From Bacteroidota bacterium (lineage in GTDB: Bacteria; Bacteroidota; Rhodothermia; Rhodothermales; UBA10348), in NCBI GenBank assembly GCA_029262855.1, contig JAJCYP010000052.1, positions 1 through 60,362 on the forward strand: a DNA stretch of 60,362 nt. Reading direction: 5' to 3'. The number at the start of each line of letters is the position of its first letter. Within the stretch, counting starts at the first letter, position 1. The position numbers were made by a program, and so were the translations under genes. Below the pieces are notes generated by a model. The model was not told the origin of the DNA. It made no database searches and worked only from the letters and a program-made list of their open reading frames with translations. Shown here one piece after another: positions 17,147 through 43,216 of this stretch.

Positions 17147-17182
17147 GGCGGGGGACTATTCCGATTCAGGTTCAACCAACCA

Positions 17183-17211: not shown

Positions 17212-17394
17212 GGCGGTGTTTTCCACATCGCTGCCGGGAGGGTGTGCGGTGATAACCACAGGTTTTACAGCCACCTGGGGCCAATTCGTTCCGCGGTGCG
17301 AAAACTGAGGGCCGTTATTGTGAATAATAATGCAACGAAGCCGCACTGCAACTGGAGGTACGGACCACTCCAGAAGAATGGTGTCTAGCTGCGA

Positions 17395-17423
17395 TTGAAT
17401 AACCACCTTTCAGTACGTATACA
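17395..17423 (+). promoter_or_regulatory. Candidate promoter of the ECF sigma/kinase operon
   Basis: TTGAAT at 17395-17400, a 17-base spacer and TATACA at 17418-17423 resemble a sigma70-type promoter. The GTG start at 17452 would give a leader of roughly 20 bases. An autoregulated ECF promoter is also possible but cannot be told from one site. Confidence 0.42.
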
Positions 17424-17451
17424 TAATTGACTGAGCCTCTCCCCCAGCACG

Positions 17452-18024
17452 GTGCCCCTGCAAAACGACGTAACCCAACTCCTCGTGAGCCATCGCCAAG
17501 GCGAGGAAGGTGCGTCTGCGCAGTTGTTCACCCTGGTCTATGACGAGCTCCGGGCGATGGCGCACCGGCAACTGCGCTTCAGGAGTCCCGGGGAGACCAT
17601 CAACACCACCGGGCTGGTCCACGAAGCCTACCTGAAACTGTTCAACCGGGCCGACGCCGAATGGACGGACCGTGTTCATTTTTTCGCCGTTACGGCCAAA
17701 GCCATGCGGCAGATTCTGGTGGACTATGCCCGCGCGAGCCGCGCCGAAAAGCGGGGCGGCGAAGCGCACCGCACGGAACTGGTTTCGGGCATCCTGTACG
17801 AGGATGCGCGGTCCCTGGACCTCCTCGATCTCGAGGATGCTCTGACTCGACTCAACGAACTGAACCCCAGACTGGCTCAGATCGTAGAAATGCGGTTCTA
17901 CGGAGGAATGTCGGTGGAAGAAATCGGAACTGCCTTGGACCTGTCGGGACGAACCGTCGACCGGGATTGGTTCAAGGCGAAGAGCTTTCTCTACCTGGCG
18001 CTTAAAGGAACGGACGGCGTTTGA
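17452..18024 (+). CDS. ECF-type RNA polymerase sigma factor (Sig-70_X6/TIGR02999-like)
   Basis: 190 residues from a GTG. Region 2 spans the stretch with FTLVYDELRAMAHRQLR, TTGLVHEAYLKLF and VHFFAVTAKAMRQILVDYAR, the signature of the subfamily common in Rhodothermales, Planctomycetes, Acidobacteria and Gemmatimonadetes. Region 4 has LNPRLAQIVEMRFYGGMSVEEI and the helix-turn-helix LDLSGRTVDRDW. No anti-sigma gene is adjacent. Instead the Ser/Thr kinase starts one base after the stop, an arrangement in which sigma activity may be tied to kinase signalling. It replaces the housekeeping sigma on RNA polymerase to direct a regulon that cannot be deduced here. Confidence 0.9.
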   Translation: MPLQNDVTQLLVSHRQGEEGASAQLFTLVYDELRAMAHRQLRFRSPGETINTTGLVHEAYLKLFNRADAEWTDRVHFFAVTAKAMRQILVDYARASRAEKRGGEAHRTELVSGILYEDARSLDLLDLEDALTRLNELNPRLAQIVEMRFYGGMSVEEIGTALDLSGRTVDRDWFKAKSFLYLALKGTDGV

Positions 18025-18025
18025 T

Positions 18026-20488: not shown

Positions 20489-23130
20489 CTCTCCGACACC
20501 TCCGGCTCGGCCACGACTTCCGTGGGTAGCGTCTCGAAGGTGAGGCCGGATCCGTCTTCGGACAGGTCCACGCGGATGGTCTCGCCCTTCTCGATCCAGC
20601 CGGACAACAGCTCCTCGGCCAGTTTGTTGGTGACCTCTCGCTGAATGACCCGCTTGAGAGGTCTGGCGCCGAACACCGGGTCGAATCCCTGGTCTCCCAG
20701 CCAGACGCGGGCGTCCGGCGTAATCTCAAGCGTAACTCCGGCGCTGTTGGACGCCAGCTTCTGGACATGCGCAATCTGGAGATCCACGATCTGGCCGATG
20801 GCCCCACGACCAAGCGGATGGAACACTACAGTTTCGTCAATACGATTGAGAAACTCGGGGCGCAGCCGCTTCTTGAGCAGGTTCATCACCTCGTCCTTGA
20901 GGCTCTCCTCTGCGCGCTCGGTCAGCTCACCGTCCAGGGCATCGAGTCGATCGCGGATGACCTCTGAACCCAGATTCGAGGTCATGATCACAATCGTGTT
21001 CTTGAAATCGACGGTCCGTCCCTGGTTGTCAGTCAGGCGACCGTCGTCGAGCACCTGGAGGAGGATGTTGAAGACCTCGGGATGTGCTTTCTCGATTTCG
21101 TCCAGCAGCACCACAGCGTAGGGTCGACGCCGGACCTTCTCGGTGAGCTGCCCGCCCTCCTCGTAGCCGACGTAGCCGGGAGGCGCGCCCACGAGTCGAC
21201 TCACGGTGTGCCGCTCCTGGTACTCACTCATGTCGATTCGAATGAGCGCCTGTTCGTCATTGAACAGGAACTCGGCGAGCGCCTTGGCAAGCTCCGTCTT
21301 GCCGACGCCGGTGGTCCCCAGGAAGATGAATGAACCGATGGGGCGACTCTCTTCCTGAAGTCCCGCGCGGCCGCGGCGGACGGCGTGCGACACAGCCGCG
21401 ACCGCCTCGCGCTGACCGATCACCCGGTGCTCCAGCTCATCTTCCATTCGGAGAAGCTTGGCACGCTCACTCTCCAGCATCCTGGAGACCGGGACGCCGG
21501 TCCAGCGCGACACGATGTTGGCGATGTCTTCCGCGTCGATTTCCTCCTTGAGGAGCGCACCGTTCCGCTGGATGACCATGAGCCGCTCCTTCGTGTCGGT
21601 GACGGTCTGCTCCAGTTGCGGAATCCGCCCGTACCGGATTTCGGCCACATCGCCGTACTTGCCCTGACGCTCCAGCGTCTCGGCTTCCAATCGGGCTTCC
21701 TCAATCTGCTCCTTGCTCTGGCGGAGCTCCTGGATGAGTTCTTTTTCCTGATTCCAGCGGGCACGCAAGGCTGTCCGCTTTTCCTCCAGGTCGGCCAGGG
21801 TCTCGCCGATACTCATGAGCTTGGTCTCGTCCCGCTCCCGCTTGACGGCCTCGCGCTCGATCTCCAACTGGCGGATCTGGCGCTCCAGTTGATCGAGTTC
21901 CTCCGGCATCGAGTCGATCTCGATACGCAAGCGGGACGCCGCCTCGTCGATCAGGTCAATCGCCTTGTCGGGAAGAAACCGCTCGGTGATATAGCGGCTC
22001 GAGAGCTGCGCGGCGGCTACCAGGGCGCCGTCCGTTATCCGGACGCCGTGATGGACTTCGTAGCGTTCCTTGATGCCCCGGAGAATGGAAATCGTGTCTT
22101 CCTGGCTTGGCTCGGCCACCACCACTGATTGGAATCGGCGTTCGAGTGCCTTGTCCTTTTCGAGGTACTTCCTGAACTCGTCCAGCGTCGTGGCGCCGAT
22201 GGCTCTGAGTTCGCCGCGCGCCAGGGCGGGCTTCAGAATATTGGCGGCGTCCATCTGGCCTTCCGAGGCTCCCGCTCCCACCAGCGTGTGGATCTCGTCG
22301 ATGAAAAGGATGATCTGTCCGGCGGCCTCGGTGACCTCCTTGATGACGGCCTTCAGGCGATCCTCGAACTCACCCCGGTACTTGGCTCCGGCAATCAGCG
22401 ACCCCATGTCCAGGGCCAGGATGCGGCGGTCCTTGAGGCCTTCCGGCACGTCGCCCTGGACGATGCGAATGGCCAGGCCTTCGGCGATGGCGGTCTTGCC
22501 CACGCCGGGCTCACCGATCAGGACGGGGTTGTTCTTGGTGCGCCGCGCCAGAATCTGGAGTACCCGGCGGATCTCGTCATCCCGACCGATGACCGGGTCA
22601 ATCTTGCCTTTGCGCGCCAGTTCGTTCAGGTCGCGGGTGTAGCGTTCGAGCGACTGGTACCTGCTCTCGGCGTGCTGATCGGTCACCCGCTGGCTCCCGC
22701 GGACCTCCTTCAGCACCGCGAGGATGCGCTCCTTGGTGATGTCCTGCCCCTTGAACGCCTCGGTCAAGGTATCGGCAGCGGAGAGGGCGATGAGCACGTG
22801 CTCGCTGGCCACGAAGTCGTCCTTGAGCAGTTCGGCCTCGGCCAACGCGCGGTCAAACACCTTCTTCGCGCCCTTTCCGAGATACTGTCCCGAGACGCTC
22901 GAGCCCGTGACTACGGGCAACCGGTCCATCTCCTGCTGCGTCCGGTTGCGCAGCAACTCCAGGTTGGCACCCAGTTTCTCCAGGATGGACGGGACCACTC
23001 CGCCCTCGTCCTGAAGGAAGGCAAACAGGAGGTGCGGTGGCTCCAGACCCTGATGGTTCTTGGACTGAGCCAACTCCACAGCGGTCTGGATGACCTCCTG
23101 GGCCTTAGTCGTAAACTTCTGCAGGTTCAT
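20485..23130 (-). CDS. clpB: ATP-dependent disaggregase ClpB
   Basis: 881 residues from ATG 23130; [12 protein letters not shown] is the canonical family start, and the upstream TTG at 23157 adds nine atypical residues. The N-domain (1-150) is followed by AAA-1 with Walker [10 protein letters not shown] from 206 and the coiled-coil middle domain with [21 protein letters not shown]-2 has GTTGVGKTE from 605, [15 protein letters not shown], and the C-terminal [12 protein letters not shown]. ClpB extracts polypeptides from aggregates together with DnaK. The middle domain distinguishes it from ClpA/ClpC. No CIRCE-type element is visible upstream. The gene converges on the kinase gene and shares CTAG with it at the two stops. 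The DUF2231 gene ends 141 bases upstream in the same direction. Confidence 0.96.
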
Positions 23131-23271
23131 AAGGCGCTCGAAAAAGCGATAGGTCAATATGGCAGACGATCCACGCGGGATTCGCCTATGTGACTACGGT
23201 CCAACGCCGTGCCAAACCGGCTGCCTCTGACGAGGTGTCAGGCCTGCCGCGCTTGCCCGCGCGGGCGGAAC

Positions 23272-24471
23272 CTAGTGGTCCTGCGCTTCCGTGCCCGCCT
23301 CGTGTTCGTGATCCGCGGCCTCGGTCGCGGCCTCGGTCGCGGCGTTCTCGAGCGAGGCCTCGGCTGCGGCCTCGTCGGTCGTAACCTCCTCATCACCCAT
23401 CTCCATGGCCCCGCCCGCGGCCGTGGCAAGGTCCACTGCCTGCATGCTGGCGAGCCTCACCGTACCGGTACCGTTCAGCCTCAGGCCAACCTGTCCCGGT
23501 TCGAAGGCCGTGCCGTGACCGTGGATGGCCAGGCGCGTATTGACATAGCTGCGGTAATGAGCCCCATCGACCACCACGCGGACGTCCTGCCAACCGGTCT
23601 CCGATATGGCCTCGGTCGCCTGAACCAGCAGGTCCGAGTTCTCGGTTTTGCCGAGCCTGATCTGACCGTTGCCAACCGACGTGAATCCATAGGCGCCGCC
23701 CTCCTGTACGTGGTGGGCTACGAGCGCCGTGCCTTCAAAGTCAGAAAGATCAATGGACAGATCCACCTGCAGTCGGTCAATCGACCCCGGCATGACAAAC
23801 AGCGTGGGTTCGGTCACTTCGAACTGAAAAACGTCGCCGCGTTCGCCGGCGTCCACGAGGCTGGACTGGAGCGATTCGGCCGATCCCTCGACCCAGATGA
23901 CGGAGTTTTTCCAGGCGCCTGCACGGGCAGGCGTCCACATCCATCCCACGGCTGATCTGGCGATCCCGTCGTCTCCCGCCTCCGCGGTGATCAGCGGCTC
24001 GGAAGGCCGAGTCTCAACCGCTTCCACGCCGACGCCATACCGGTACACCAGTTCGGCTCCGTGCGTGGCCGTGACCGAGATGAGGACGAGCCCTCCCAGG
24101 CCAATAACCAACAGTCCGAGTCGCGGAACGAGGCCTGCGGCAAACTTGGTTGCGCTCAGGCCCGTCCGGATGACGCCGTATCCTCCAAAGAACCAGGCGG
24201 TCCAGAGTCCGAGGTCGGCATGCTCGGTCAGCAGCGCGTTGGCCTCGGTGGGAAGGAAGACCGAATCGGCAGCGAGCGTGCCCGTATACCACGTTGCGAC
24301 AGCAGAGACGGCGCCAACGGCGTAGAGCCAGTTGGCAGATTTTCTCCAGCTCCCACGGTCGCCAGAGGCAATGCCGACGGCATCAAGCGCGGCCGCCACA
24401 AAAAGCAGCGCGATCGGAAAATGCAGCACCAGTGGGTGCAGGTTCGGGGCCCATTCTGGAAGGAGTGACAT
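23272..24471 (-). CDS. DUF2231-type membrane protein fused to a beta-sandwich-like C-terminal domain
   Basis: 399 residues. The N-terminal half is a four-helix membrane domain beginning HPLVLHFPIALL with His12 and His17. A further His lies in LLTEHADLGLWTAW, as expected for DUF2231 proteins, often linked to haem or redox functions of the inner membrane. The second half (about 175-350) looks like a concanavalin/3-keto-disaccharide-hydrolase-type beta sandwich (DUF1080-like), with FQFEVTEPTLFV, GWQDVRVVVDG and LRLNGTGTVRLAS. The last 45 residues are an acidic Ala/Glu tail (ENAATEAATEAADHEHE) built partly from a duplicated 12-base unit. This domain pairing is unusual and I know of no assigned function. 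It diverges from the DUF493 gene. Confidence 0.7.
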   Translation of the reverse strand: MSLLPEWAPNLHPLVLHFPIALLFVAAALDAVGIASGDRGSWRKSANWLYAVGAVSAVATWYTGTLAADSVFLPTEANALLTEHADLGLWTAWFFGGYGVIRTGLSATKFAAGLVPRLGLLVIGLGGLVLISVTATHGAELVYRYGVGVEAVETRPSEPLITAEAGDDGIARSAVGWMWTPARAGAWKNSVIWVEGSAESLQSSLVDAGERGDVFQFEVTEPTLFVMPGSIDRLQVDLSIDLSDFEGTALVAHHVQEGGAYGFTSVGNGQIRLGKTENSDLLVQATEAISETGWQDVRVVVDGAHYRSYVNTRLAIHGHGTAFEPGQVGLRLNGTGTVRLASMQAVDLATAAGGAMEMGDEEVTTDEAAAEASLENAATEAATEAADHEHEAGTEAQDH

Positions 24472-24625
24472 CGAAGGAATCTGAAGGTGAGCTGGGAACG
24501 GGTTTTACCCGTCAATCGGGCGGAAGTTACCCCGGACACGAATTGAAACCCTGCCATGGATCCCGGGTTGGCCGGCCCGGTTTGAAGGATCGCACGGCTC
24601 ACTCGAGCCCAGATAAAACAGGCAG

Positions 24626-24907
24626 ATGGAAGGTGAGCGCACATCCAAAGATGACTGGTGGGACCGGTTTCAGAAGCTGCTCGACGATCAAAACGAGTGG
24701 CCCACCGACTATACGTTCAAGTTCATCGCACCGGCCGCCCGCGTGGACGAGCTGAAGGCAGTCTTCGGTCAGGTGGATCTGTCGGTCCGTGAATCACGGA
24801 AGGGGAAGTACCAGTCGGTCACGGCTGTGATGAACATGCATTCCAGCGACGAGGTGGTGGCGATGTACCACGCAGTCGGAAAAATCGACGGCGTTATAGC
24901 TCTCTGA
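24626..24907 (+). CDS. DUF493 (YbeD-like) small protein
   Basis: 93 residues, the typical length of the YbeD/DUF493 family. YPTDYTFKF-like beta strand (here WPTDYTFKFIA) is followed by a helix and SRKGKYQSVTAVMNMHSSDEVVAMYHAV, matching the ferredoxin-like fold whose loop S-x-G-K-Y-x-S is conserved. The last strand VDGVI-like IDGVIAL closes the fold. In enterobacteria ybeD lies beside lip genes, but its role is not settled and no lipoate gene is present here. It converges on the small charged protein with seven bases between the stops. ATG 24626 has a weak upstream AGGCAG. Confidence 0.82.
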   Translation: MEGERTSKDDWWDRFQKLLDDQNEWPTDYTFKFIAPAARVDELKAVFGQVDLSVRESRKGKYQSVTAVMNMHSSDEVVAMYHAVGKIDGVIAL

Positions 24908-24914
24908 GGCTCCC

Positions 24915-25220
24915 TCAGGAGTAGGTGTCCAGGTGGCCGCCCGACTTGGATGAGTCGGATTCGTAGGTGGACTTCTCTTTTGGGGGGGCTTCGGGCGCTC
25001 CCTTGATCTCGTCCCGCGTAATGGCGCCCATGCTGGTGTAGGCCCCGGACAGGAAGGGAGAGCGTTCGCCGACCTGACCGCGGGTCAGGTTCAGGATGTA
25101 GGCTTCTTCCTGGTTTTCCCGCTCAGAACGCTCTTCGTCCTTCCGCCGCTGATCGCGACGGCTCTGGCGGTCGACTGGTTCGACCCGACGTTCGGTGCTA
25201 TGTACAGGTTCGACTCGCAT
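24915..25220 (-). CDS. Small charged protein of unknown function
   Basis: 101 residues with no signal peptide or membrane helix. The first 45 residues are very rich in Arg, Glu and Gln (RRDQRRKDEERSERENQEEA), probably helical. Residues 45-75 contain a better-conserved-looking ILNLTRGQVGERSPFLSG segment. The tail is Ser/Pro/Lys-rich and probably disordered. It lies 77 bases downstream of the cysteine-desulfurase-like gene in the same orientation. I do not recognise a family. Confidence 0.55.
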   Translation of the reverse strand: MRVEPVHSTERRVEPVDRQSRRDQRRKDEERSERENQEEAYILNLTRGQVGERSPFLSGAYTSMGAITRDEIKGAPEAPPKEKSTYESDSSKSGGHLDTYS

Positions 25221-25297
25221 AGGAATCCCGGCCTCCCCATTTGAATCGACCGCAACAGCGACCTCTTAAGCAATTGGGGAGATTGCACGGGAAACAA

Positions 25298-26548
25298 TCA
25301 AAACGCGTGCCTGACGCCCGATTCGAGCACCATTTTCTGTAGAGTGTCGCACACCTGGTCGACTTCCTGGGCGGTGTTGTAGTGCGCCAGGCCGATGCGG
25401 ACCAGGCCCCCGCTGGGCGCGTGGCCCAGGGCGTCGATGACCTCCATGGCGTAGTAGTCTCCATCCCAAACAAAGATGTTGCGGGCTCCGAGATACTCCG
25501 CCACGGACCGCGCAGGAATGCCCTCGACGTCCAGAATCACCGTCGGTACGCGGTCGGTCATGTCTGCCTCGTCAGTCAGACCGTAGATGGTGATCTCCGG
25601 CAGTTCCTGAAGGCGGTTGATGAGCCGCAGGCAAAGATCCTGCTCGTACCGGGCGATGTGCTGCATGGCATGCACCAGGCGTGCGCGGCGAGAGGCGCCT
25701 TCGCCCAGCGACTCCAGGTACTCCACGACTCCCAGCGTTCCTGCCATCCCCTCGTGCGAAAGGGTGCCTGTCTCGTGACGGATGGGCAGGGCGTCATCGG
25801 CGGGGCGCACCTTGTAGGGCGGCAGGCCGGCCAGCAGCTCCTCGCGTCCCCATAGGACTCCCTGATGCGGGCCGAAGAACTTGTAGGGGGAGCAGACCAG
25901 GAAGTCACAACCGAGCGCCTGTACGTCGGTGACACCGTGAGGTACGTACTGGACGGCGTCCACGTACGATAGCGCCCCTACCTCGTGCGCCATGGCCGAC
26001 ATCCGGGCGACCGGGTTGATGGTGCCCAGCGCATTCGAAGCGTAGTTGAGCGCGACAAGGGCCGTCTTTTCGGAGAGCAGACTCCCATAGACATCCAGAT
26101 CATACCGAAACGTCCCGGTATCAAAGGGCAGCCACCGGATGGTCATGTCAAGATCCCGGGCCAGCAGGAGCCAGGGCGAGATATTCGCGTCGTGGTCCAT
26201 CCGGGTAACCACGATTTCCTGCCCCGCCTCAAACTGCTGTCCGAGCGTCCTGGACATGTGGAAGGTCAAGGTGGTCATGTTCTGGCCGAACACGATCTCA
26301 TCCGGAGACCGGGCGCCCAGGAGATCAGCCATCGCCGCGTGCGCCTCGTCCAGCAGCGCGTCCGACTCCCGACTCGTCCGAAAAGCGCCGCCACCGTTGG
26401 CGTTTGTCCGCGTGAGGTAGGAGACGGTGCGGTCAATGACCCGCTGCGCCACCTGGGTACCGCCGGGGTTGTCCAGGTAGAGTCGGGGTTGCCCCGCATC
26501 GGTCAATGCCAGTGCGGGAAAATGCGAGCGGATCTGGTCTGGGTTCAT
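25298..26548 (-). CDS. Cysteine-desulfurase-like PLP enzyme (class V aminotransferase, VC1184 type)
   Basis: 416 residues. YLDNPGGTQVA near the start and FGQNMTTLTFHMSR are typical of the 'cysteine desulfurase-like protein' subgroup (TIGR01976) of fold-type-I PLP enzymes. The cofactor strand VGALSYVDAVQYVPHG supplies the Asp, and the Schiff-base Lys is K223 in CSPYKFFGPHQG. The C-terminal domain ends with GGLVRIGLAHYNTAQEVDQV. The mobile active-site Cys loop of true SufS/IscS is not evident, and no suf or isc partners are nearby. Generic desulfurase, selenocysteine lyase or kynureninase-like activity therefore cannot be separated. It diverges from the amidohydrolase across 155 bases. Confidence 0.85.
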   Translation of the reverse strand: MNPDQIRSHFPALALTDAGQPRLYLDNPGGTQVAQRVIDRTVSYLTRTNANGGGAFRTSRESDALLDEAHAAMADLLGARSPDEIVFGQNMTTLTFHMSRTLGQQFEAGQEIVVTRMDHDANISPWLLLARDLDMTIRWLPFDTGTFRYDLDVYGSLLSEKTALVALNYASNALGTINPVARMSAMAHEVGALSYVDAVQYVPHGVTDVQALGCDFLVCSPYKFFGPHQGVLWGREELLAGLPPYKVRPADDALPIRHETGTLSHEGMAGTLGVVEYLESLGEGASRRARLVHAMQHIARYEQDLCLRLINRLQELPEITIYGLTDEADMTDRVPTVILDVEGIPARSVAEYLGARNIFVWDGDYYAMEVIDALGHAPSGGLVRIGLAHYNTAQEVDQVCDTLQKMVLESGVRHAF

Positions 26549-26559
26549 GCTTGGGCTTG

Positions 26560-26622
26560 TGCGTTCGTTGGCGCGGGCTGGGCGTCTGTCGACGCAGGCA
26601 ATGCGTTCGTTGGCAGCGCCAA
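26560..26622. promoter_or_regulatory. Repeats in the divergent promoter region
   Basis: TGCGTTCGTTGGC occurs at 26560-26572 and 26602-26614 as exact direct repeats 42 bases (about four helical turns) apart. The second copy overlaps a short inverted repeat TTGGC-AGC-GCCAA at 26610-26622. The block sits between the divergent PLP-enzyme and amidohydrolase genes, where a shared regulator could bind. Confidence 0.4.
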
Positions 26623-26703
26623 TCTACGGCGGCGGAATCGTGTTCTGGTTGCCGGTGCGGAGCGTGCCACCTATCCTCGGAGACCACGACCACTCCCGAT
26701 GCA

Positions 26704-27963
26704 ATGCGTTCTCTATTCAGCCTGGTTTTCGCTTTCCTTTTTCTAGCTCCCGCTACGGCCCGTCAAGCGGTGGTGATTGACGCAGCCCGCGCATTCGATG
26801 GCACCGAAATGCGGGCAAACTGGCGCGTGGTCGTGGAAGACGGCCGCATCACCGCCTCGGGGGCCCAAGATGCTACGCCCGCGCCGGCAGGGGCCCGCCA
26901 CGTGGACCTCGGTAACCGAACGCTTCTGCCGGGTCTGATCGAGGGCCATTCGCATGTCCTCCTGCACCCGTACAGCGAGACTGGCTGGAATGATCAGGTG
27001 TTGAAGGAGTCCCGCGCCGAACGGGTGGCGCGCGCGGTGGTGCATGTGGACCGGTCGCTGCAGGCCGGTTTCACGACGCTGCGGGACCTGGGATCAGAGG
27101 GTGCCGAGTACGCCGATGTCGGTGTGAGAACGGCGATTCGGAAGGGTGTCATCCCCGGATCGGATCTGATTGTGGCGGGCCGCGCGATTGTGGCTACAGG
27201 CAGCTACGGGCCGAAGGGCTTTCACCCGGAAGTCCGCGTTCCGCTGGGCGCCGAACCGGCGGACGGTCCCGACCTGATCCGCGTGACCCGGGACCAGATC
27301 GGGAAGGGAGCCGACTTCATCAAGATCTATGCGGACTACCGCTGGGGAGCCAGCGGACAGGCTGCCCCGACCTTTTCGGTCGAAGAGATCAAGTCCATCG
27401 TCGAGACGGCTGCCAGTAGCGGTCGTCCGGTCGTGGCCCACGCCTCGACCGAAGAAGGGATGATGCGCGCCATCCATGGCGGCGTCGAGACCATCGAGCA
27501 CGGCGACAGCGGAACGCCTGAAATCTTTGCGCTCATGGCCCGCGAGGGCGTGGTCTGGTACCCGACGCTGGCCGCGGTCGAGTCGATTCTGTCCTACGGC
27601 GGCTGGCAGAAGGGTGTGGATCCAGAGCCGGCGCGAATCGCCCGAAAGAAGGCCGCGTTCCAGGCTGCGCTCGCTGCCGGGACTGAGATCGGGATGGGCG
27701 GCGATGTGGGCGTGTACCATCACGGAGAAAATGCCCTCGAAATGGAACTCATGGTGGAGTACGGCATGGAGCCGACGGCGGTGCTGAGGGCCACCACATC
27801 CCTCAACGCCGACACCTTCCACCTCGCGGACCGCGGTCGCCTGGCTGCGGGACTGCGGGCGGATATTATCGCAGTTGACGGGGATCCATCCCGGGATATC
27901 GCTGCCATATGGGACGTGGTCTGGGTCATGAAGGCCGGGGATGTGGTCCGCGACGATCAGTAA
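26704..27963 (+). CDS. Exported metal-dependent amidohydrolase
   Basis: 419 residues from ATG 26704, which gives the signal peptide MRSLFSLVFAFLFLAPATAR; the frame extends upstream to 26506 without signal character. The metal ligands of the amidohydrolase superfamily are present in order: HxH at 82/84 (EGHSHV), a probable carboxylated Lys207 (FIKIYAD), His246 (VVAHAS), His266 (IEHGD) and Asp334 (GGDVG). The overall pattern is closest to the imidazolonepropionase-like or Xaa-Pro dipeptidase ('prolidase') group found exported in Bacteroidota. The substrate may be a dipeptide or small cyclic amide. It is followed 25 bases later by the Wzi-like gene in the same direction, so probably one operon. 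Confidence 0.85.
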   Translation: MRSLFSLVFAFLFLAPATARQAVVIDAARAFDGTEMRANWRVVVEDGRITASGAQDATPAPAGARHVDLGNRTLLPGLIEGHSHVLLHPYSETGWNDQVLKESRAERVARAVVHVDRSLQAGFTTLRDLGSEGAEYADVGVRTAIRKGVIPGSDLIVAGRAIVATGSYGPKGFHPEVRVPLGAEPADGPDLIRVTRDQIGKGADFIKIYADYRWGASGQAAPTFSVEEIKSIVETAASSGRPVVAHASTEEGMMRAIHGGVETIEHGDSGTPEIFALMAREGVVWYPTLAAVESILSYGGWQKGVDPEPARIARKKAAFQAALAAGTEIGMGGDVGVYHHGENALEMELMVEYGMEPTAVLRATTSLNADTFHLADRGRLAAGLRADIIAVDGDPSRDIAAIWDVVWVMKAGDVVRDDQ

Positions 27964-27976
27964 CATTTTCAGACTT

Positions 27977-27991
27977 CGGAGAAACGCATTG
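27977..27991 (+). promoter_or_regulatory. Ribosome-binding site deciding a TTG start
   Basis: CGGAGA at 27977-27982 lies six bases before TTG 27989-27991. This supports the TTG over the upstream ATG at 27941, which overlaps the amidohydrolase stop. The TTG start also gives a clean signal peptide. Confidence 0.65.
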
Positions 27992-29674
27992 AGGCGACTG
28001 ACATTGAGGGGGCTCGGCTTGAGGGGGCTCGCCGCCATCCTCTTCCTGCTCCTGTCCGTGCCTGTCGCGGCGCAGGTGGATGGTGTGCTCCAGATTGATG
28101 ATGGACTGCACCGGTTTCTGATTCGGCAGCAGCTTGCCGGACGACTCGATTGGGCCCACCTGACACACCAGCCGCTGTCGGCCGGCGACTCGCAGGCGTA
28201 TCTGGATTCGCTGGATCAGTATCGAGCCGATCTGAGCCGAACTGACCAGAGGCTACTCGAGCGGTATCGCCGGGAAGTCCCGGGACCCGGAGCCGAGTGG
28301 GTGGCCGATCGCGTTCCGAGGGTGTTTCGGAACGGCCACGACCTGATCGGGGCGTCGTCGGACGACTGGTCGGTGTCCGTGAACCCGATCTTTGTCGGTG
28401 CCATGGGGGTCGGGAAGCGGACCGCCGGCGAGGGTGTGGACGCCTCGCCGCGGGTCAGCCAGAACACGAGGGGGACGCACATTGCCGGGGCGATTGGGCC
28501 GTATTTCTTCTTCGAGGGGCGGTTTACCGAGAACTCGCAGCGTGTGGTGGATCCGGTGTCCCGAGACGGTTCCGTTCCGCGTCGGGGCTCCGCCAAGGTC
28601 TCGGGGAACGTCTACAACTGGATGGAGGCCACCGGCGTCGTGGGTCTGCGCACTAAGTACCTCGAAGCGCGATTTGGACGTGACCGGTACCGTTGGGGTC
28701 ACGCCCTCGGGAGTCCGTATCTGTCTAACTATGCGCCGCCAATCGATCACGTCCTGCTGAAGGCTCGGTTCTGGCGCCTCGAATACGTGAGTCTGTTTTC
28801 CGCATACACCTCCAGCCGGGCACCGGGGGCCGGGCGGGGCGATTCGGTCCGTCGCCGGAAGTATGGCTCCAGCCACCGTCTGGCGGTCCACCTGCCCGGC
28901 CGGCTGGAAGTCAGCATTTTCGAGACGGTGGTCTTTGCCACGGACTCGCTTGAGGTGCGGGAGCGATTCGACCTGTCCTATGCCAACCCCGTCATCTTTC
29001 TCCGCGCGGTGGAGCGCGATCGCGGGAGTCCAGACAATGTGCTCCTGGGGGCCAGCGCGGCGTGGCGGCCGGTGAACGGCCTGCGCGTATTCGTGGAGCT
29101 GATGCTGGACGAGTTCAAGTCCGACTTCGTGGGAAAGGAGTGGTGGGCCAACAAGTGGATCTGGAACTACGGGCTGCAAATGGCCGACTTCCCCGTGTCA
29201 GGAGTCACGGCCCGCTTTGAGGCCGCGCGCATCCGGCCCTTCATGTACAGCCACGATGACGAGATCGACGCCTACGTCCATTTCGGTGATCTCCTGGGTC
29301 ATCCCGCCGGCCCCAACGCCTGGGACTACACGCTCGCGCTGGACTATCAGGCCACCGACCGGCTCCGCTTCTCGGCCAACACGGCCGTGACCCGGCGCGG
29401 CCGAAACGATGGCGCCATCAACTATGGCAGCGATCCGCTGATCGACTACGCCGCAGGACGTCAGGGCGAATTCGGTCACGCGCTCCTGCAGGGAATCCGG
29501 CAGACCCAGATTCTGAGCGAGGCCTTCGCGAGCTACGAGGTGTTGCCGACCCTGTTTGTGGACGCGGCCGTCCGCTATGAATCGCTGGATGACGCGGAGC
29601 TCGGGCTCGACCGTTGGGCCACGCCGTTCGTGCAGCTTCGTTGGGGCGTGCCGTTTCCTTCGGCGCGCTGGTAG
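27989..29674 (+). CDS. Wzi-like capsule-assembly family outer-membrane protein
   Basis: 561 residues. The TTG start yields a signal peptide with basic n-region and a core ending VPVAAQ. The mature protein begins with a helical stretch of about 100 residues. It then becomes a series of alternating amphipathic strands with many aromatic girdle residues, expected for an outer-membrane beta-barrel. FGRDRYRWGHALGSPYLSNY and VSLFSAYTSSR match the Caps_assemb_Wzi pattern. In Escherichia coli Wzi is a surface lectin that helps anchor group 1 capsule; in Bacteroidota the family is broader, so polysaccharide binding is inferred. The n-region is built from three 15-base units. The gene converges on the rhodanese gene with 100 bases between them. 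Confidence 0.8.
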   Translation: MRRLTLRGLGLRGLAAILFLLLSVPVAAQVDGVLQIDDGLHRFLIRQQLAGRLDWAHLTHQPLSAGDSQAYLDSLDQYRADLSRTDQRLLERYRREVPGPGAEWVADRVPRVFRNGHDLIGASSDDWSVSVNPIFVGAMGVGKRTAGEGVDASPRVSQNTRGTHIAGAIGPYFFFEGRFTENSQRVVDPVSRDGSVPRRGSAKVSGNVYNWMEATGVVGLRTKYLEARFGRDRYRWGHALGSPYLSNYAPPIDHVLLKARFWRLEYVSLFSAYTSSRAPGAGRGDSVRRRKYGSSHRLAVHLPGRLEVSIFETVVFATDSLEVRERFDLSYANPVIFLRAVERDRGSPDNVLLGASAAWRPVNGLRVFVELMLDEFKSDFVGKEWWANKWIWNYGLQMADFPVSGVTARFEAARIRPFMYSHDDEIDAYVHFGDLLGHPAGPNAWDYTLALDYQATDRLRFSANTAVTRRGRNDGAINYGSDPLIDYAAGRQGEFGHALLQGIRQTQILSEAFASYEVLPTLFVDAAVRYESLDDAELGLDRWATPFVQLRWGVPFPSARW

Positions 29675-29689
29675 GAGGGCGATGGCCAG

Positions 29690-29770
29690 CCTGCGCGGCC
29701 CGCCCGTGGGGCGCGGGCGCCGCCGCAGCGCGGGCGCGGTTCGTTGGCGACCAGCGTGGCGGGCGCCGTC
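29690..29770. terminator. Very GC-rich convergent intergenic hairpin region
   Basis: Between the Wzi-like and rhodanese stops, GCCCGCCC-GTG-GGGCGCGGGC (about 29699-29720) can form a strong hairpin with a two-base bulge, followed by further GC-rich inverted sequence. There is no T run, so it could terminate transcription from both sides only with a factor's help. Confidence 0.3.
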
Positions 29771-29774
29771 GCCG

Positions 29775-30182
29775 CTACAGCCCTGTCCGCAGCTCTTCCT
29801 TCAGCAATCTGCTCCACGTCTTGTCGAAGGCGTGGACCTTGGTGGCCGGGCCGTTCGCGTCCTCGAGGGGGCGACCCTCGTTGGCCCACTGGAAGATGGA
29901 CCCTTCAAGGTTGACCACATTGAAGCCCGCATCTTGCAGCCGGTCCGCGAGCGCCGAGGAGCGATAGCCCACCGAGCAGTAGGCCACGATCGTGGCGTCC
30001 TGCGGGATGTCGCCAAACTCCGTCTCGTCCGGGTCGATGTTTGAGGCGCCGGGCAAATGGCTCACCCGGAACTCATCTTCGGTGCGTACATCGAGCAGGT
30101 AAACATCCTGGCCTGCGGCCAGGATGTTTGCCAGCGAGTCGGTCGAAATCTGCTCGACATCGGGGAACGCCGTGCGGACCAT
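29775..30182 (-). CDS. Rhodanese-domain sulfurtransferase, 5' context cut at the dyad
   Basis: 135 residues counted from the ATG that overlaps the symmetry centre. The single rhodanese domain has VYLLDVRTEDEFRVSHLPGA, then the active-site loop AYCSVGYRSS with catalytic Cys69, and ends FQWANEGRPLE. This loop accepts sulfur from thiosulfate or a persulfide donor. No signal peptide is seen. The family's domain usually starts only a few residues before ISTDSL, so this Met may be the true start. However, everything upstream is mirror sequence, and a longer natural N-terminus (exported or fused) cannot be excluded. The extra 19 residues obtained by reading on across the centre are artefactual. Confidence 0.8.
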   Translation of the reverse strand: MVRTAFPDVEQISTDSLANILAAGQDVYLLDVRTEDEFRVSHLPGASNIDPDETEFGDIPQDATIVAYCSVGYRSSALADRLQDAGFNVVNLEGSIFQWANEGRPLEDANGPATKVHAFDKTWSRLLKEELRTGL

Positions 30183-30187
30183 GGTCC
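30176..30187. other. Dyad junction of the palindrome
   Basis: The centre reads GGACCATGGTCC, with the symmetry axis between 30181 and 30182. The two rhodanese copies point away from each other from this point, and their in-frame ATG codons (30181-30183 on plus, 30182-30180 on minus) overlap by two bases. The junction falls at or just before the first codon of the recognisable rhodanese domain. The true upstream sequence of that gene is therefore missing from the window. Confidence 0.97.
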
Positions 30188-30588
30188 GCACGGCGTTCCC
30201 CGATGTCGAGCAGATTTCGACCGACTCGCTGGCAAACATCCTGGCCGCAGGCCAGGATGTTTACCTGCTCGATGTACGCACCGAAGATGAGTTCCGGGTG
30301 AGCCATTTGCCCGGCGCCTCAAACATCGACCCGGACGAGACGGAGTTTGGCGACATCCCGCAGGACGCCACGATCGTGGCCTACTGCTCGGTGGGCTATC
30401 GCTCCTCGGCGCTCGCGGACCGGCTGCAAGATGCGGGCTTCAATGTGGTCAACCTTGAAGGGTCCATCTTCCAGTGGGCCAACGAGGGTCGCCCCCTCGA
30501 GGACGCGAACGGCCCGGCCACCAAGGTCCACGCCTTCGACAAGACGTGGAGCAGATTGCTGAAGGAAGAGCTGCGGACAGGGCTGTAG
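30181..30588 (+). CDS. Rhodanese-domain sulfurtransferase (mirror copy)
   Basis: Identical mirror of 29775-30182. Cys69 is encoded at 30385-30387 within YCSVGYRS. The upstream region is the reversed copy of the same gene, so no promoter or ribosome-binding site can be read. Confidence 0.8.
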   Translation: MVRTAFPDVEQISTDSLANILAAGQDVYLLDVRTEDEFRVSHLPGASNIDPDETEFGDIPQDATIVAYCSVGYRSSALADRLQDAGFNVVNLEGSIFQWANEGRPLEDANGPATKVHAFDKTWSRLLKEELRTGL

Positions 30589-30688
30589 CGGCGACGGCGC
30601 CCGCCACGCTGGTCGCCAACGAACCGCGCCCGCGCTGCGGCGGCGCCCGCGCCCCACGGGCGGGCCGCGCAGGCTGGCCATCGCCCTC

Positions 30689-32374
30689 CTACCAGCGCGC
30701 CGAAGGAAACGGCACGCCCCAACGAAGCTGCACGAACGGCGTGGCCCAACGGTCGAGCCCGAGCTCCGCGTCATCCAGCGATTCATAGCGGACGGCCGCG
30801 TCCACAAACAGGGTCGGCAACACCTCGTAGCTCGCGAAGGCCTCGCTCAGAATCTGGGTCTGCCGGATTCCCTGCAGGAGCGCGTGACCGAATTCGCCCT
30901 GACGTCCTGCGGCGTAGTCGATCAGCGGATCGCTGCCATAGTTGATGGCGCCATCGTTTCGGCCGCGCCGGGTCACGGCCGTGTTGGCCGAGAAGCGGAG
31001 CCGGTCGGTGGCCTGATAGTCCAGCGCGAGCGTGTAGTCCCAGGCGTTGGGGCCGGCGGGATGACCCAGGAGATCACCGAAATGGACGTAGGCGTCGATC
31101 TCGTCATCGTGGCTGTACATGAAGGGCCGGATGCGCGCGGCCTCAAAGCGGGCCGTGACTCCTGACACGGGGAAGTCGGCCATTTGCAGCCCGTAGTTCC
31201 AGATCCACTTGTTGGCCCACCACTCCTTTCCCACGAAGTCGGACTTGAACTCGTCCAGCATCAGCTCCACGAATACGCGCAGGCCGTTCACCGGCCGCCA
31301 CGCCGCGCTGGCCCCCAGGAGCACATTGTCTGGACTCCCGCGATCGCGCTCCACCGCGCGGAGAAAGATGACGGGGTTGGCATAGGACAGGTCGAATCGC
31401 TCCCGCACCTCAAGCGAGTCCGTGGCAAAGACCACCGTCTCGAAAATGCTGACTTCCAGCCGGCCGGGCAGGTGGACCGCCAGACGGTGGCTGGAGCCAT
31501 ACTTCCGGCGACGGACCGAATCGCCCCGCCCGGCCCCCGGTGCCCGGCTGGAGGTGTATGCGGAAAACAGACTCACGTATTCGAGGCGCCAGAACCGAGC
31601 CTTCAGCAGGACGTGATCGATTGGCGGCGCATAGTTAGACAGATACGGACTCCCGAGGGCGTGACCCCAACGGTACCGGTCACGTCCAAATCGCGCTTCG
31701 AGGTACTTAGTGCGCAGACCCACGACGCCGGTGGCCTCCATCCAGTTGTAGACGTTCCCCGAGACCTTGGCGGAGCCCCGACGCGGAACGGAACCGTCTC
31801 GGGACACCGGATCCACCACACGCTGCGAGTTCTCGGTAAACCGCCCCTCGAAGAAGAAATACGGCCCAATCGCCCCGGCAATGTGCGTCCCCCTCGTGTT
31901 CTGGCTGACCCGCGGCGAGGCGTCCACACCCTCGCCGGCGGTCCGCTTCCCGACCCCCATGGCACCGACAAAGATCGGGTTCACGGACACCGACCAGTCG
32001 TCCGACGACGCCCCGATCAGGTCGTGGCCGTTCCGAAACACCCTCGGAACGCGATCGGCCACCCACTCGGCTCCGGGTCCCGGGACTTCCCGGCGATACC
32101 GCTCGAGTAGCCTCTGGTCAGTTCGGCTCAGATCGGCTCGATACTGATCCAGCGAATCCAGATACGCCTGCGAGTCGCCGGCCGACAGCGGCTGGTGTGT
32201 CAGGTGGGCCCAATCGAGTCGTCCGGCAAGCTGCTGCCGAATCAGAAACCGGTGCAGTCCATCATCAATCTGGAGCACACCATCCACCTGCGCCGCGACA
32301 GGCACGGACAGGAGCAGGAAGAGGATGGCGGCGAGCCCCCTCAAGCCGAGCCCCCTCAATGTCAGTCGCCTCAA
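30689..32374 (-). CDS. Wzi-like outer-membrane protein (mirror copy)
   Basis: Mirror of 27989-29674: TTG start at 32374, signal peptide, Wzi-type beta-barrel protein of 561 residues, identical in sequence. Confidence 0.8.
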   Translation of the reverse strand: MRRLTLRGLGLRGLAAILFLLLSVPVAAQVDGVLQIDDGLHRFLIRQQLAGRLDWAHLTHQPLSAGDSQAYLDSLDQYRADLSRTDQRLLERYRREVPGPGAEWVADRVPRVFRNGHDLIGASSDDWSVSVNPIFVGAMGVGKRTAGEGVDASPRVSQNTRGTHIAGAIGPYFFFEGRFTENSQRVVDPVSRDGSVPRRGSAKVSGNVYNWMEATGVVGLRTKYLEARFGRDRYRWGHALGSPYLSNYAPPIDHVLLKARFWRLEYVSLFSAYTSSRAPGAGRGDSVRRRKYGSSHRLAVHLPGRLEVSIFETVVFATDSLEVRERFDLSYANPVIFLRAVERDRGSPDNVLLGASAAWRPVNGLRVFVELMLDEFKSDFVGKEWWANKWIWNYGLQMADFPVSGVTARFEAARIRPFMYSHDDEIDAYVHFGDLLGHPAGPNAWDYTLALDYQATDRLRFSANTAVTRRGRNDGAINYGSDPLIDYAAGRQGEFGHALLQGIRQTQILSEAFASYEVLPTLFVDAAVRYESLDDAELGLDRWATPFVQLRWGVPFPSARW

Positions 32375-32399
32375 TGCGTTTCTCCGAAGTCTGAAAATG

Positions 32400-33659
32400 T
32401 TACTGATCGTCGCGGACCACATCCCCGGCCTTCATGACCCAGACCACGTCCCATATGGCAGCGATATCCCGGGATGGATCCCCGTCAACTGCGATAATAT
32501 CCGCCCGCAGTCCCGCAGCCAGGCGACCGCGGTCCGCGAGGTGGAAGGTGTCGGCGTTGAGGGATGTGGTGGCCCTCAGCACCGCCGTCGGCTCCATGCC
32601 GTACTCCACCATGAGTTCCATTTCGAGGGCATTTTCTCCGTGATGGTACACGCCCACATCGCCGCCCATCCCGATCTCAGTCCCGGCAGCGAGCGCAGCC
32701 TGGAACGCGGCCTTCTTTCGGGCGATTCGCGCCGGCTCTGGATCCACACCCTTCTGCCAGCCGCCGTAGGACAGAATCGACTCGACCGCGGCCAGCGTCG
32801 GGTACCAGACCACGCCCTCGCGGGCCATGAGCGCAAAGATTTCAGGCGTTCCGCTGTCGCCGTGCTCGATGGTCTCGACGCCGCCATGGATGGCGCGCAT
32901 CATCCCTTCTTCGGTCGAGGCGTGGGCCACGACCGGACGACCGCTACTGGCAGCCGTCTCGACGATGGACTTGATCTCTTCGACCGAAAAGGTCGGGGCA
33001 GCCTGTCCGCTGGCTCCCCAGCGGTAGTCCGCATAGATCTTGATGAAGTCGGCTCCCTTCCCGATCTGGTCCCGGGTCACGCGGATCAGGTCGGGACCGT
33101 CCGCCGGTTCGGCGCCCAGCGGAACGCGGACTTCCGGGTGAAAGCCCTTCGGCCCGTAGCTGCCTGTAGCCACAATCGCGCGGCCCGCCACAATCAGATC
33201 CGATCCGGGGATGACACCCTTCCGAATCGCCGTTCTCACACCGACATCGGCGTACTCGGCACCCTCTGATCCCAGGTCCCGCAGCGTCGTGAAACCGGCC
33301 TGCAGCGACCGGTCCACATGCACCACCGCGCGCGCCACCCGTTCGGCGCGGGACTCCTTCAACACCTGATCATTCCAGCCAGTCTCGCTGTACGGGTGCA
33401 GGAGGACATGCGAATGGCCCTCGATCAGACCCGGCAGAAGCGTTCGGTTACCGAGGTCCACGTGGCGGGCCCCTGCCGGCGCGGGCGTAGCATCTTGGGC
33501 CCCCGAGGCGGTGATGCGGCCGTCTTCCACGACCACGCGCCAGTTTGCCCGCATTTCGGTGCCATCGAATGCGCGGGCTGCGTCAATCACCACCGCTTGA
33601 CGGGCCGTAGCGGGAGCTAGAAAAAGGAAAGCGAAAACCAGGCTGAATAGAGAACGCAT
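32400..33659 (-). CDS. Exported metal-dependent amidohydrolase (mirror copy)
   Basis: Mirror of 26704-27963, with the same HxH, Lys, His, His and Asp ligand set; upstream of the Wzi-like mirror copy by 25 bases. Confidence 0.85.
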   Translation of the reverse strand: MRSLFSLVFAFLFLAPATARQAVVIDAARAFDGTEMRANWRVVVEDGRITASGAQDATPAPAGARHVDLGNRTLLPGLIEGHSHVLLHPYSETGWNDQVLKESRAERVARAVVHVDRSLQAGFTTLRDLGSEGAEYADVGVRTAIRKGVIPGSDLIVAGRAIVATGSYGPKGFHPEVRVPLGAEPADGPDLIRVTRDQIGKGADFIKIYADYRWGASGQAAPTFSVEEIKSIVETAASSGRPVVAHASTEEGMMRAIHGGVETIEHGDSGTPEIFALMAREGVVWYPTLAAVESILSYGGWQKGVDPEPARIARKKAAFQAALAAGTEIGMGGDVGVYHHGENALEMELMVEYGMEPTAVLRATTSLNADTFHLADRGRLAAGLRADIIAVDGDPSRDIAAIWDVVWVMKAGDVVRDDQ

Positions 33660-33740
33660 TGCATCGGGAGTGGTCGTGGTCTCCGAGGATAGGTGGCACG
33701 CTCCGCACCGGCAACCAGAACACGATTCCGCCGCCGTAGA

Positions 33741-33803
33741 TTGGCGCTGCCAACGAACGCATTGCCTGCGTCGACAGACGCCCAGCCCGCGCCAACGAAC
33801 GCA
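33741..33803. promoter_or_regulatory. Repeats in the divergent promoter region (mirror copy)
   Basis: Mirror of 26560-26622: two exact 13-bp direct repeats and the overlapping TTGGC/GCCAA inverted repeat. Confidence 0.4.
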
Positions 33804-33814
33804 CAAGCCCAAGC

Positions 33815-35065
33815 ATGAACCCAGACCAGATCCGCTCGCATTTTCCCGCACTGGCATTGACCGATGCGGGGCAACCCCGACTCTACCTGGACAACCCCGG
33901 CGGTACCCAGGTGGCGCAGCGGGTCATTGACCGCACCGTCTCCTACCTCACGCGGACAAACGCCAACGGTGGCGGCGCTTTTCGGACGAGTCGGGAGTCG
34001 GACGCGCTGCTGGACGAGGCGCACGCGGCGATGGCTGATCTCCTGGGCGCCCGGTCTCCGGATGAGATCGTGTTCGGCCAGAACATGACCACCTTGACCT
34101 TCCACATGTCCAGGACGCTCGGACAGCAGTTTGAGGCGGGGCAGGAAATCGTGGTTACCCGGATGGACCACGACGCGAATATCTCGCCCTGGCTCCTGCT
34201 GGCCCGGGATCTTGACATGACCATCCGGTGGCTGCCCTTTGATACCGGGACGTTTCGGTATGATCTGGATGTCTATGGGAGTCTGCTCTCCGAAAAGACG
34301 GCCCTTGTCGCGCTCAACTACGCTTCGAATGCGCTGGGCACCATCAACCCGGTCGCCCGGATGTCGGCCATGGCGCACGAGGTAGGGGCGCTATCGTACG
34401 TGGACGCCGTCCAGTACGTACCTCACGGTGTCACCGACGTACAGGCGCTCGGTTGTGACTTCCTGGTCTGCTCCCCCTACAAGTTCTTCGGCCCGCATCA
34501 GGGAGTCCTATGGGGACGCGAGGAGCTGCTGGCCGGCCTGCCGCCCTACAAGGTGCGCCCCGCCGATGACGCCCTGCCCATCCGTCACGAGACAGGCACC
34601 CTTTCGCACGAGGGGATGGCAGGAACGCTGGGAGTCGTGGAGTACCTGGAGTCGCTGGGCGAAGGCGCCTCTCGCCGCGCACGCCTGGTGCATGCCATGC
34701 AGCACATCGCCCGGTACGAGCAGGATCTTTGCCTGCGGCTCATCAACCGCCTTCAGGAACTGCCGGAGATCACCATCTACGGTCTGACTGACGAGGCAGA
34801 CATGACCGACCGCGTACCGACGGTGATTCTGGACGTCGAGGGCATTCCTGCGCGGTCCGTGGCGGAGTATCTCGGAGCCCGCAACATCTTTGTTTGGGAT
34901 GGAGACTACTACGCCATGGAGGTCATCGACGCCCTGGGCCACGCGCCCAGCGGGGGCCTGGTCCGCATCGGCCTGGCGCACTACAACACCGCCCAGGAAG
35001 TCGACCAGGTGTGCGACACTCTACAGAAAATGGTGCTCGAATCGGGCGTCAGGCACGCGTTTTGA
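33815..35065 (+). CDS. Cysteine-desulfurase-like PLP enzyme (mirror copy)
   Basis: Mirror of 25298-26548. The PLP Lys223 codon is at 34481-34483 in CSPYKFFGP. Confidence 0.85.
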   Translation: MNPDQIRSHFPALALTDAGQPRLYLDNPGGTQVAQRVIDRTVSYLTRTNANGGGAFRTSRESDALLDEAHAAMADLLGARSPDEIVFGQNMTTLTFHMSRTLGQQFEAGQEIVVTRMDHDANISPWLLLARDLDMTIRWLPFDTGTFRYDLDVYGSLLSEKTALVALNYASNALGTINPVARMSAMAHEVGALSYVDAVQYVPHGVTDVQALGCDFLVCSPYKFFGPHQGVLWGREELLAGLPPYKVRPADDALPIRHETGTLSHEGMAGTLGVVEYLESLGEGASRRARLVHAMQHIARYEQDLCLRLINRLQELPEITIYGLTDEADMTDRVPTVILDVEGIPARSVAEYLGARNIFVWDGDYYAMEVIDALGHAPSGGLVRIGLAHYNTAQEVDQVCDTLQKMVLESGVRHAF

Positions 35066-35142
35066 TTGTTTCCCGTGCAATCTCCCCAATTGCTTAAGAG
35101 GTCGCTGTTGCGGTCGATTCAAATGGGGAGGCCGGGATTCCT

Positions 35143-35448
35143 ATGCGAGTCGAACCTGTACATAGCACCGAACGTCGGGTCGAACCAGTCGACCGCCAGA
35201 GCCGTCGCGATCAGCGGCGGAAGGACGAAGAGCGTTCTGAGCGGGAAAACCAGGAAGAAGCCTACATCCTGAACCTGACCCGCGGTCAGGTCGGCGAACG
35301 CTCTCCCTTCCTGTCCGGGGCCTACACCAGCATGGGCGCCATTACGCGGGACGAGATCAAGGGAGCGCCCGAAGCCCCCCCAAAAGAGAAGTCCACCTAC
35401 GAATCCGACTCATCCAAGTCGGGCGGCCACCTGGACACCTACTCCTGA
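35143..35448 (+). CDS. Small charged protein of unknown function (mirror copy)
   Basis: Mirror of 24915-25220. The coding sequence contains an 8-bp inverted repeat ACCTGACC-CGC-GGTCAGGT at 35273-35291, with no evident role. Confidence 0.55.
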   Translation: MRVEPVHSTERRVEPVDRQSRRDQRRKDEERSERENQEEAYILNLTRGQVGERSPFLSGAYTSMGAITRDEIKGAPEAPPKEKSTYESDSSKSGGHLDTYS

Positions 35449-35455
35449 GGGAGCC

Positions 35456-35737
35456 TCAGAGAGCTATAACGCCGTCGATTTTTCCGACTGCGTGGTACAT
35501 CGCCACCACCTCGTCGCTGGAATGCATGTTCATCACAGCCGTGACCGACTGGTACTTCCCCTTCCGTGATTCACGGACCGACAGATCCACCTGACCGAAG
35601 ACTGCCTTCAGCTCGTCCACGCGGGCGGCCGGTGCGATGAACTTGAACGTATAGTCGGTGGGCCACTCGTTTTGATCGTCGAGCAGCTTCTGAAACCGGT
35701 CCCACCAGTCATCTTTGGATGTGCGCTCACCTTCCAT
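35456..35737 (-). CDS. DUF493 (YbeD-like) small protein (mirror copy)
   Basis: Mirror of 24626-24907; identical 93-residue product, converging on the small charged protein. Confidence 0.82.
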   Translation of the reverse strand: MEGERTSKDDWWDRFQKLLDDQNEWPTDYTFKFIAPAARVDELKAVFGQVDLSVRESRKGKYQSVTAVMNMHSSDEVVAMYHAVGKIDGVIAL

Positions 35738-35891
35738 CTGCCTGTTTTATCTGGGCTCGAGTGAGCCGTGCGATCCTTCAAACCGGGCCGGCCAACCCGG
35801 GATCCATGGCAGGGTTTCAATTCGTGTCCGGGGTAACTTCCGCCCGATTGACGGGTAAAACCCGTTCCCAGCTCACCTTCAGATTCCTTCG

Positions 35892-37091
35892 ATGTCACTC
35901 CTTCCAGAATGGGCCCCGAACCTGCACCCACTGGTGCTGCATTTTCCGATCGCGCTGCTTTTTGTGGCGGCCGCGCTTGATGCCGTCGGCATTGCCTCTG
36001 GCGACCGTGGGAGCTGGAGAAAATCTGCCAACTGGCTCTACGCCGTTGGCGCCGTCTCTGCTGTCGCAACGTGGTATACGGGCACGCTCGCTGCCGATTC
36101 GGTCTTCCTTCCCACCGAGGCCAACGCGCTGCTGACCGAGCATGCCGACCTCGGACTCTGGACCGCCTGGTTCTTTGGAGGATACGGCGTCATCCGGACG
36201 GGCCTGAGCGCAACCAAGTTTGCCGCAGGCCTCGTTCCGCGACTCGGACTGTTGGTTATTGGCCTGGGAGGGCTCGTCCTCATCTCGGTCACGGCCACGC
36301 ACGGAGCCGAACTGGTGTACCGGTATGGCGTCGGCGTGGAAGCGGTTGAGACTCGGCCTTCCGAGCCGCTGATCACCGCGGAGGCGGGAGACGACGGGAT
36401 CGCCAGATCAGCCGTGGGATGGATGTGGACGCCTGCCCGTGCAGGCGCCTGGAAAAACTCCGTCATCTGGGTCGAGGGATCGGCCGAATCGCTCCAGTCC
36501 AGCCTCGTGGACGCCGGCGAACGCGGCGACGTTTTTCAGTTCGAAGTGACCGAACCCACGCTGTTTGTCATGCCGGGGTCGATTGACCGACTGCAGGTGG
36601 ATCTGTCCATTGATCTTTCTGACTTTGAAGGCACGGCGCTCGTAGCCCACCACGTACAGGAGGGCGGCGCCTATGGATTCACGTCGGTTGGCAACGGTCA
36701 GATCAGGCTCGGCAAAACCGAGAACTCGGACCTGCTGGTTCAGGCGACCGAGGCCATATCGGAGACCGGTTGGCAGGACGTCCGCGTGGTGGTCGATGGG
36801 GCTCATTACCGCAGCTATGTCAATACGCGCCTGGCCATCCACGGTCACGGCACGGCCTTCGAACCGGGACAGGTTGGCCTGAGGCTGAACGGTACCGGTA
36901 CGGTGAGGCTCGCCAGCATGCAGGCAGTGGACCTTGCCACGGCCGCGGGCGGGGCCATGGAGATGGGTGATGAGGAGGTTACGACCGACGAGGCCGCAGC
37001 CGAGGCCTCGCTCGAGAACGCCGCGACCGAGGCCGCGACCGAGGCCGCGGATCACGAACACGAGGCGGGCACGGAAGCGCAGGACCACTAG
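35892..37091 (+). CDS. DUF2231-type membrane protein with beta-sandwich-like C-terminus (mirror copy)
   Basis: Mirror of 23272-24471. The duplicated GACCGAGGCCGC unit of the acidic tail can be read directly at about 37024-37047. Confidence 0.7.
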   Translation: MSLLPEWAPNLHPLVLHFPIALLFVAAALDAVGIASGDRGSWRKSANWLYAVGAVSAVATWYTGTLAADSVFLPTEANALLTEHADLGLWTAWFFGGYGVIRTGLSATKFAAGLVPRLGLLVIGLGGLVLISVTATHGAELVYRYGVGVEAVETRPSEPLITAEAGDDGIARSAVGWMWTPARAGAWKNSVIWVEGSAESLQSSLVDAGERGDVFQFEVTEPTLFVMPGSIDRLQVDLSIDLSDFEGTALVAHHVQEGGAYGFTSVGNGQIRLGKTENSDLLVQATEAISETGWQDVRVVVDGAHYRSYVNTRLAIHGHGTAFEPGQVGLRLNGTGTVRLASMQAVDLATAAGGAMEMGDEEVTTDEAAAEASLENAATEAATEAADHEHEAGTEAQDH

Positions 37092-37232
37092 GTTCCGCCC
37101 GCGCGGGCAAGCGCGGCAGGCCTGACACCTCGTCAGAGGCAGCCGGTTTGGCACGGCGTTGGACCGTAGTCACATAGGCGAATCCCGCGTGGATCGTCTG
37201 CCATATTGACCTATCGCTTTTTCGAGCGCCTT

Positions 37233-42337: not shown

Positions 42338-42338
42338 A

Positions 42339-42911: not shown

Positions 42912-42939
42912 CGTGCTGGGGGAGAGGCTCAGTCAATTA

Positions 42940-43180: not shown

Positions 43181-43216
43181 TGGTTGGTTGAACCTGAATC
43201 GGAATAGTCCCCCGCC

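Follow-up and report, generated by a model that had tools for sequence, protein, structure and literature searches.

The 60,362-bp stretch of DNA analyzed here (the window) is the entire contig JAJCYP010000052.1 (C52) of the Bacteroidota bacterium assembly GCA_029262855.1 (G000; 4,736,185 bases in 146 contigs), and it is very probably one of two reciprocal fold-backs that the assembly produced at a short palindrome native to a rhodanese-family gene: a native order X-P-Y, with P the palindrome, would have been assembled as the two fold-backs X-P-X′ and Y′-P-Y. Comparison of the contig with its own reverse complement gave 0 mismatches in 30,181 bp on each side of an axis between positions 30181 and 30182, with no spacer between the arms, and the chance of such a palindrome, calculated from base composition, is about 10^-17410. 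C52 shows the full-length identity to its own reverse complement that defines palindromic contigs; contigs that are palindromes throughout are a published class of artefact, to which C52 very probably belongs.

The partner is contig C138 (88,456 bp), whose axis (44228/44229) lies at its exact center and whose mirror symmetry is perfect over 5,672 bp on each side, the limit of the stretch fetched around it. The part of this contig that was read is 30000-49900, with probes reaching 58457; two 501-base probes had mirror partners about 5 kb and about 14 kb from the axis. C52 and C138 share the central 28 bp, P, and diverge immediately beyond it. When a 19-base axis pattern was searched with up to two mismatches, the only matches in the same genome were at the C52 axis and at C138:44216-44241, on both strands in each case, and therefore no straight X-P-Y copy is present in the assembly. 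P itself is a little unusual, with about 0.04 perfect palindromes of at least 28 bp expected per genome and about 0.15 of at least 26 bp (from genome size and window composition), yet a single base separates its 28 bp from the sequence of a relative: the straight DNA of G002 differs from it at one third codon position (GTT vs. GTG), and the palindrome in G002 is 14 bp long. Uninterrupted palindromes at this site measure 28 bp in G000, 14 bp in G002, 8 bp in a second relative (G001), and 0 to 4 bp at the other 27 loci compared.

Reading from the C138 arm through P into the C52 arm, the rhodanese frame is uninterrupted, with the leader MNGLRRLAPGPVSLLLLCGCSPAMEWTAVRT, located on C138 in this genome, followed by MVRTAFPDVEQ from the axis onward. 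Judging by the sequences of the two arms, the C138 arm most likely carries the missing 5′ part of the gene, which the assembly would have cut in two. ATG codons 93 and 96 nt ahead of the axis ATG would give a protein of 166 or 167 residues, in which the axis methionine would be residue 32 or 33, respectively; this start was chosen by likeness to relatives, and from other in-frame ATGs the protein would be 143 or 185 residues long. The joined protein scores 62.1 bits for the rhodanese domain PF00581, much the same as the match in the window (62.4 bits, E 6e-17, cut-off 22.2 bits). Its leader resembles a lipoprotein leader, with a hydrophobic run ending in G-C, and directly upstream on the C138 arm is a gene encoding a TonB C-terminal domain.

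Two relatives of the same genus have the straight order that a palindromic-contig artefact predicts. In G001, assembled as one 2.09-Mb contig, a single intact rhodanese gene has matches to C138-arm proteins on one side and to C52-arm proteins on the other, all in line, and in G002 a 5,035-bp contig, assembled straight, has the same in-line order of C138 arm, rhodanese gene and C52 arm. Colinearity between the C52 arm and G001 extends over the first 10.5 kb or so, the whole length covered by the G001 stretch. X-P-Y is thus very probably also the order in the organism from which G000 was assembled.

The artefact could have arisen as follows. The chromosome would read X-P-Y, where X comprises a TonB-domain gene and the 5′ leader of the rhodanese gene, P is the 28-bp perfect palindrome within that gene, and Y comprises the rest of the gene, a Wzi-like gene, an amidohydrolase gene and others. 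Since P reads the same on both strands, the folds contain no word that is missing from X-P-Y at short word lengths, and a word graph of small word length (k) would be unable to separate X-P-Y from X-P-X′ plus Y′-P-Y; the assembler would have emitted both fold-backs, as C138 and C52. Among the odd values of k tested (13 to 43), both folds were valid walks through the words of the straight sequence from 13, the lowest, to 27, as expected of a palindromic-contig artefact, and were not valid from 29 to 43. The next-longest palindrome in the stretches of the genome that were read, of 26 bp (CCGTATCGAGGATATCCTCGATACGG, on C106; L229, G000:C106:14685-14710), was assembled straight; its ambiguity ends at k = 25, and that of two 20-bp palindromes at k = 19. 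A smallest word of 27 may therefore be what separates the folded P from the unfolded site on C106. Among 170 readable contig ends, 26 of the 30 exact terminal overlaps of at least 20 bases were exactly 141 bp long, which points to an iterative de Bruijn assembler. These end overlaps could also link several contigs of the assembly, for example C52 to C23.

Several points weigh against this explanation. A word length of 27 is suggested by one folded and one unfolded palindrome only, and the assembler and its settings are deduced from 141 being the largest default word of MEGAHIT. Larger values of k should have resolved P, yet the fold persists in contigs that overlap by 141 bp, and the fold junction is seen at the level of assembled contigs. 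The axis at the exact center of C138 suggests that this contig is palindromic to both ends, although only its central part was read. Finally, two more distant genomes from other families (L043 and L044) matched in the rhodanese gene only and not in its flanks, leaving two relatives as the evidence for the straight order.

The sequence-only reading of the window had placed the dyad on the start codon of the rhodanese gene. Positions 30176-30187 read GGACCATGGTCC and do contain, as it described, two overlapping and opposed ATGs at a CCATGG axis (30181-30183 on the plus strand and 30182-30180 on the minus strand), and open reading frames (ORFs) of 154 residues are present on both strands (30124-30588, plus; 29775-30239, minus), each starting 19 codons ahead of the axis ATG. 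To place the axis codon in the family, we compared the 29 best relatives with loci other than those of the genome itself (L006-L034), out of 80 genomes searched; they were positioned without gaps, the position in L032 being moved one codon back by hand, and a hydrophobic stretch was defined as a 12-residue hydropathy mean above 1.6, a threshold of our own choosing. The closest named relative among the best 80 of 301 loci was Rhodothermales bacterium SS_bin_36, at 66% identity. Upstream of the axis residue the frame was open for at least 25 codons in all 29, and 27 had a hydrophobic stretch and a methionine within 45 upstream codons, the exceptions being L016, which lacks an ATG in that interval, and L025, which lacks the hydrophobic stretch. 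A W/L-x-x-V/I motif stood just ahead of the axis residue in 28 of the 29 (absent in L025), while the axis residue itself was methionine in only nine. This upstream frame, leader and motif indicate that the segment ahead of the axis is conserved in the family, mostly with a hydrophobic leader, and that the axis ATG is on sequence grounds an internal codon. The axis ATG as the start of the gene was rejected, since the frames of the relatives continue upstream of it.

The other claims of that reading fared better. Frames that cross the axis are indeed chimeric, the 154-residue version included, and most of its N-terminus consists of reverse-strand letters. Of the roughly 19 residues held to be invented, however, only the first 15 (MFASESVEICSTSGN) are artificial, being unlike the upstream residues of all 29 relatives; the last four, AVRT, equal the native ones because their codons fall inside the 28-bp palindrome that is native to the gene. 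The native context is WTAVRT followed by MVRT in G000 and WSAVRT followed by MVRT in G002. Homologues that natively possess the extension across the axis, which would have told against a chimera, therefore exist for these four residues and not for residues 1-15, and identity with homologues begins ahead of the axis rather than at it.

Folding elsewhere in the assembly was assessed in 120 further contigs, fetched up to 20 kb each, of which 7 were wholly masked and 113 readable; with the 24 that were never fetched, 31 of the 146 contigs were thus not examined or masked. Those reading wholly as N, with as many N as their lengths add up to, were the small contigs C38, C57, C75, C79, C82, C93 and C94 (L165, L181, L199, L203, L206, L217 and L218). 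In the stretches read of the 113 contigs, which reach up to 20 kb and would miss off-center folds farther in, perfect palindromes did not exceed 26 bp. The center was read in the 76 contigs of at most 40 kb and lay outside the stretch in the 37 longer ones. An exact palindrome is impossible for 17 of these 37, which are of odd length, and none of the remaining 20, of even length, had a mirror partner at its own end (40 of 62 candidates scored). Thus only C52 and C138 were palindromic among the 115 contigs examined, and both share P.

This count bears on the idea that a chimeric molecule formed by self-primed fold-back during library preparation or amplification was captured in the assembly. 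Strand-displacing amplification does yield fold-back chimeras at short inverted repeats, and exactly mirrored contigs were met among single amplified genomes, where the authors deemed them very likely assembly artifacts (PMC12755884). Such an origin would need both sides of the same P to fold and the straight form to be wholly replaced, in a genome where the only two palindromic contigs of the 115 both carry P; a single chimera was rejected because P is folded on both sides, and we regard the idea as very improbable. A real 60-kb chromosomal palindrome, or inverted duplication, has the assembled sequence alone in its favor. Long perfect palindromes are unstable in bacteria, and here 30 kb would have to be perfectly identical while the other part of the gene is folded likewise on C138 and two relatives are straight; with the rest of the gene on C138 and the relatives straight, it was rejected as extremely unlikely.

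Hairpin telomeres would also account for the pattern, for if P were resolved by a protelomerase so that both chromosome ends became covalently closed, sequence read around each of them would be exactly X-P-X′ and Y′-P-Y, and reciprocal mirrored contigs on one palindrome would be expected. Telomeres of this kind are known from phage N15 and Borrelia, where resolution of a palindrome would give the same two fold-backs. Unlike those, P lies within the open frame of a conserved gene, whose two parts join in frame with no stop codon; the palindrome, unlike a conserved resolution site, measures 0 to 14 bp in the 29 relatives; and two relatives are straight at the site. In addition, no match to ResT-TelK_cat (PF16684) was found in G000, a weak control in that only one of 14 control genomes (Synechococcus elongatus) was positive. 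On the absence of this match the hairpin telomere was rejected, and we give it very little credence. A linear genome whose hairpin ends were formed at P by an uncharacterized telomere resolvase, with the rhodanese gene split between both ends, likewise seems a very slim prospect. The reciprocal artefact at P remains the explanation that we favor, and the features of the window are listed accordingly in Table 1.

Table 1. Features of the window, with coordinates counted from its first base
Feature	Coordinates	Strand	Basis or remark
Exact palindrome, two 30,181-bp arms, no spacer	1..60362	.	Self-reverse-complement comparison
Mirror copy of the rhodanese 3′ part, artefact duplicate	29775..30182	-	Palindrome comparison and ORF list
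Artificial first 15 codons of the 154-residue ORF	30124..30168	+	Reverse-strand letters read over the fold
28-bp palindrome P (CGCCGTGCGGACCATGGTCCGCACGGCG), shared with the C138 axis, a native part of the gene and site of the fold	30168..30195	.	Contig comparison
Four codons (AVRT) of the chimeric ORF, coinciding with native residues	30169..30180	+	Inside P
True 3′ part of the rhodanese gene	30181..30588	+	The 30181 ATG encodes an internal Met and is not a start
Arm Y, ordinary chromosomal genes	30182..60362	+	Rhodanese 3′ part, Wzi-like, amidohydrolase, class-V aminotransferase, ClpB, kinase with TPRs, SMC, others
Outer-end overlap, identical to G000:C23:1-141	60222..60362 (last 141 bp)	+	Assembly-graph-like overlap

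Within the rhodanese coding sequence, 53-81 nt off the axis, we also noted a 13-bp perfect inverted repeat with a 3-nt loop (AAACATCCTGGCC GCA GGCCAGGATGTTT) at 30234-30262, mirrored at 30101-30129. Searching the same genome with the surrounding 819 bases as query found no copy of this region outside C52.

The closest published counterparts are 81 contigs from Mycobacterium bovis, assembled with SPAdes, which are likewise single palindromes over their entire length with genes duplicated in reverse complement, and which were judged a likely assembly error (PMC9455707). In the available portion of that account no cause or breakpoint is given, whereas for C52 there are a partner contig, a fold placed on a 28-bp palindrome, and two relatives with the straight order. 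Mirrored contigs from cyanobacteria were also called very likely assembly artifacts and were removed; these came from single amplified genomes, and in the portion available a reciprocal pair is not among what is described (PMC12755884). Our search of the literature, made mostly through listings, found no description of a reciprocal pair on one native palindrome, which is a weak negative.

For quality control, the consequence is that C52 and C138 together would duplicate about 74 kb (30,181 + 44,228 bp, the second figure holding if C138 is a palindrome throughout), and palindromic contigs have been noted to inflate accessory gene counts (PMC9455707). In this genome, rated 98.95% complete with 4.29% contamination, one gene is cut in two and has acquired a false N-terminus. 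The reciprocal pair also suggests a check for other palindromic contigs: a search for a second contig centered on the same palindrome locates the breakpoint, and the likely true order with it, without recourse to reads.
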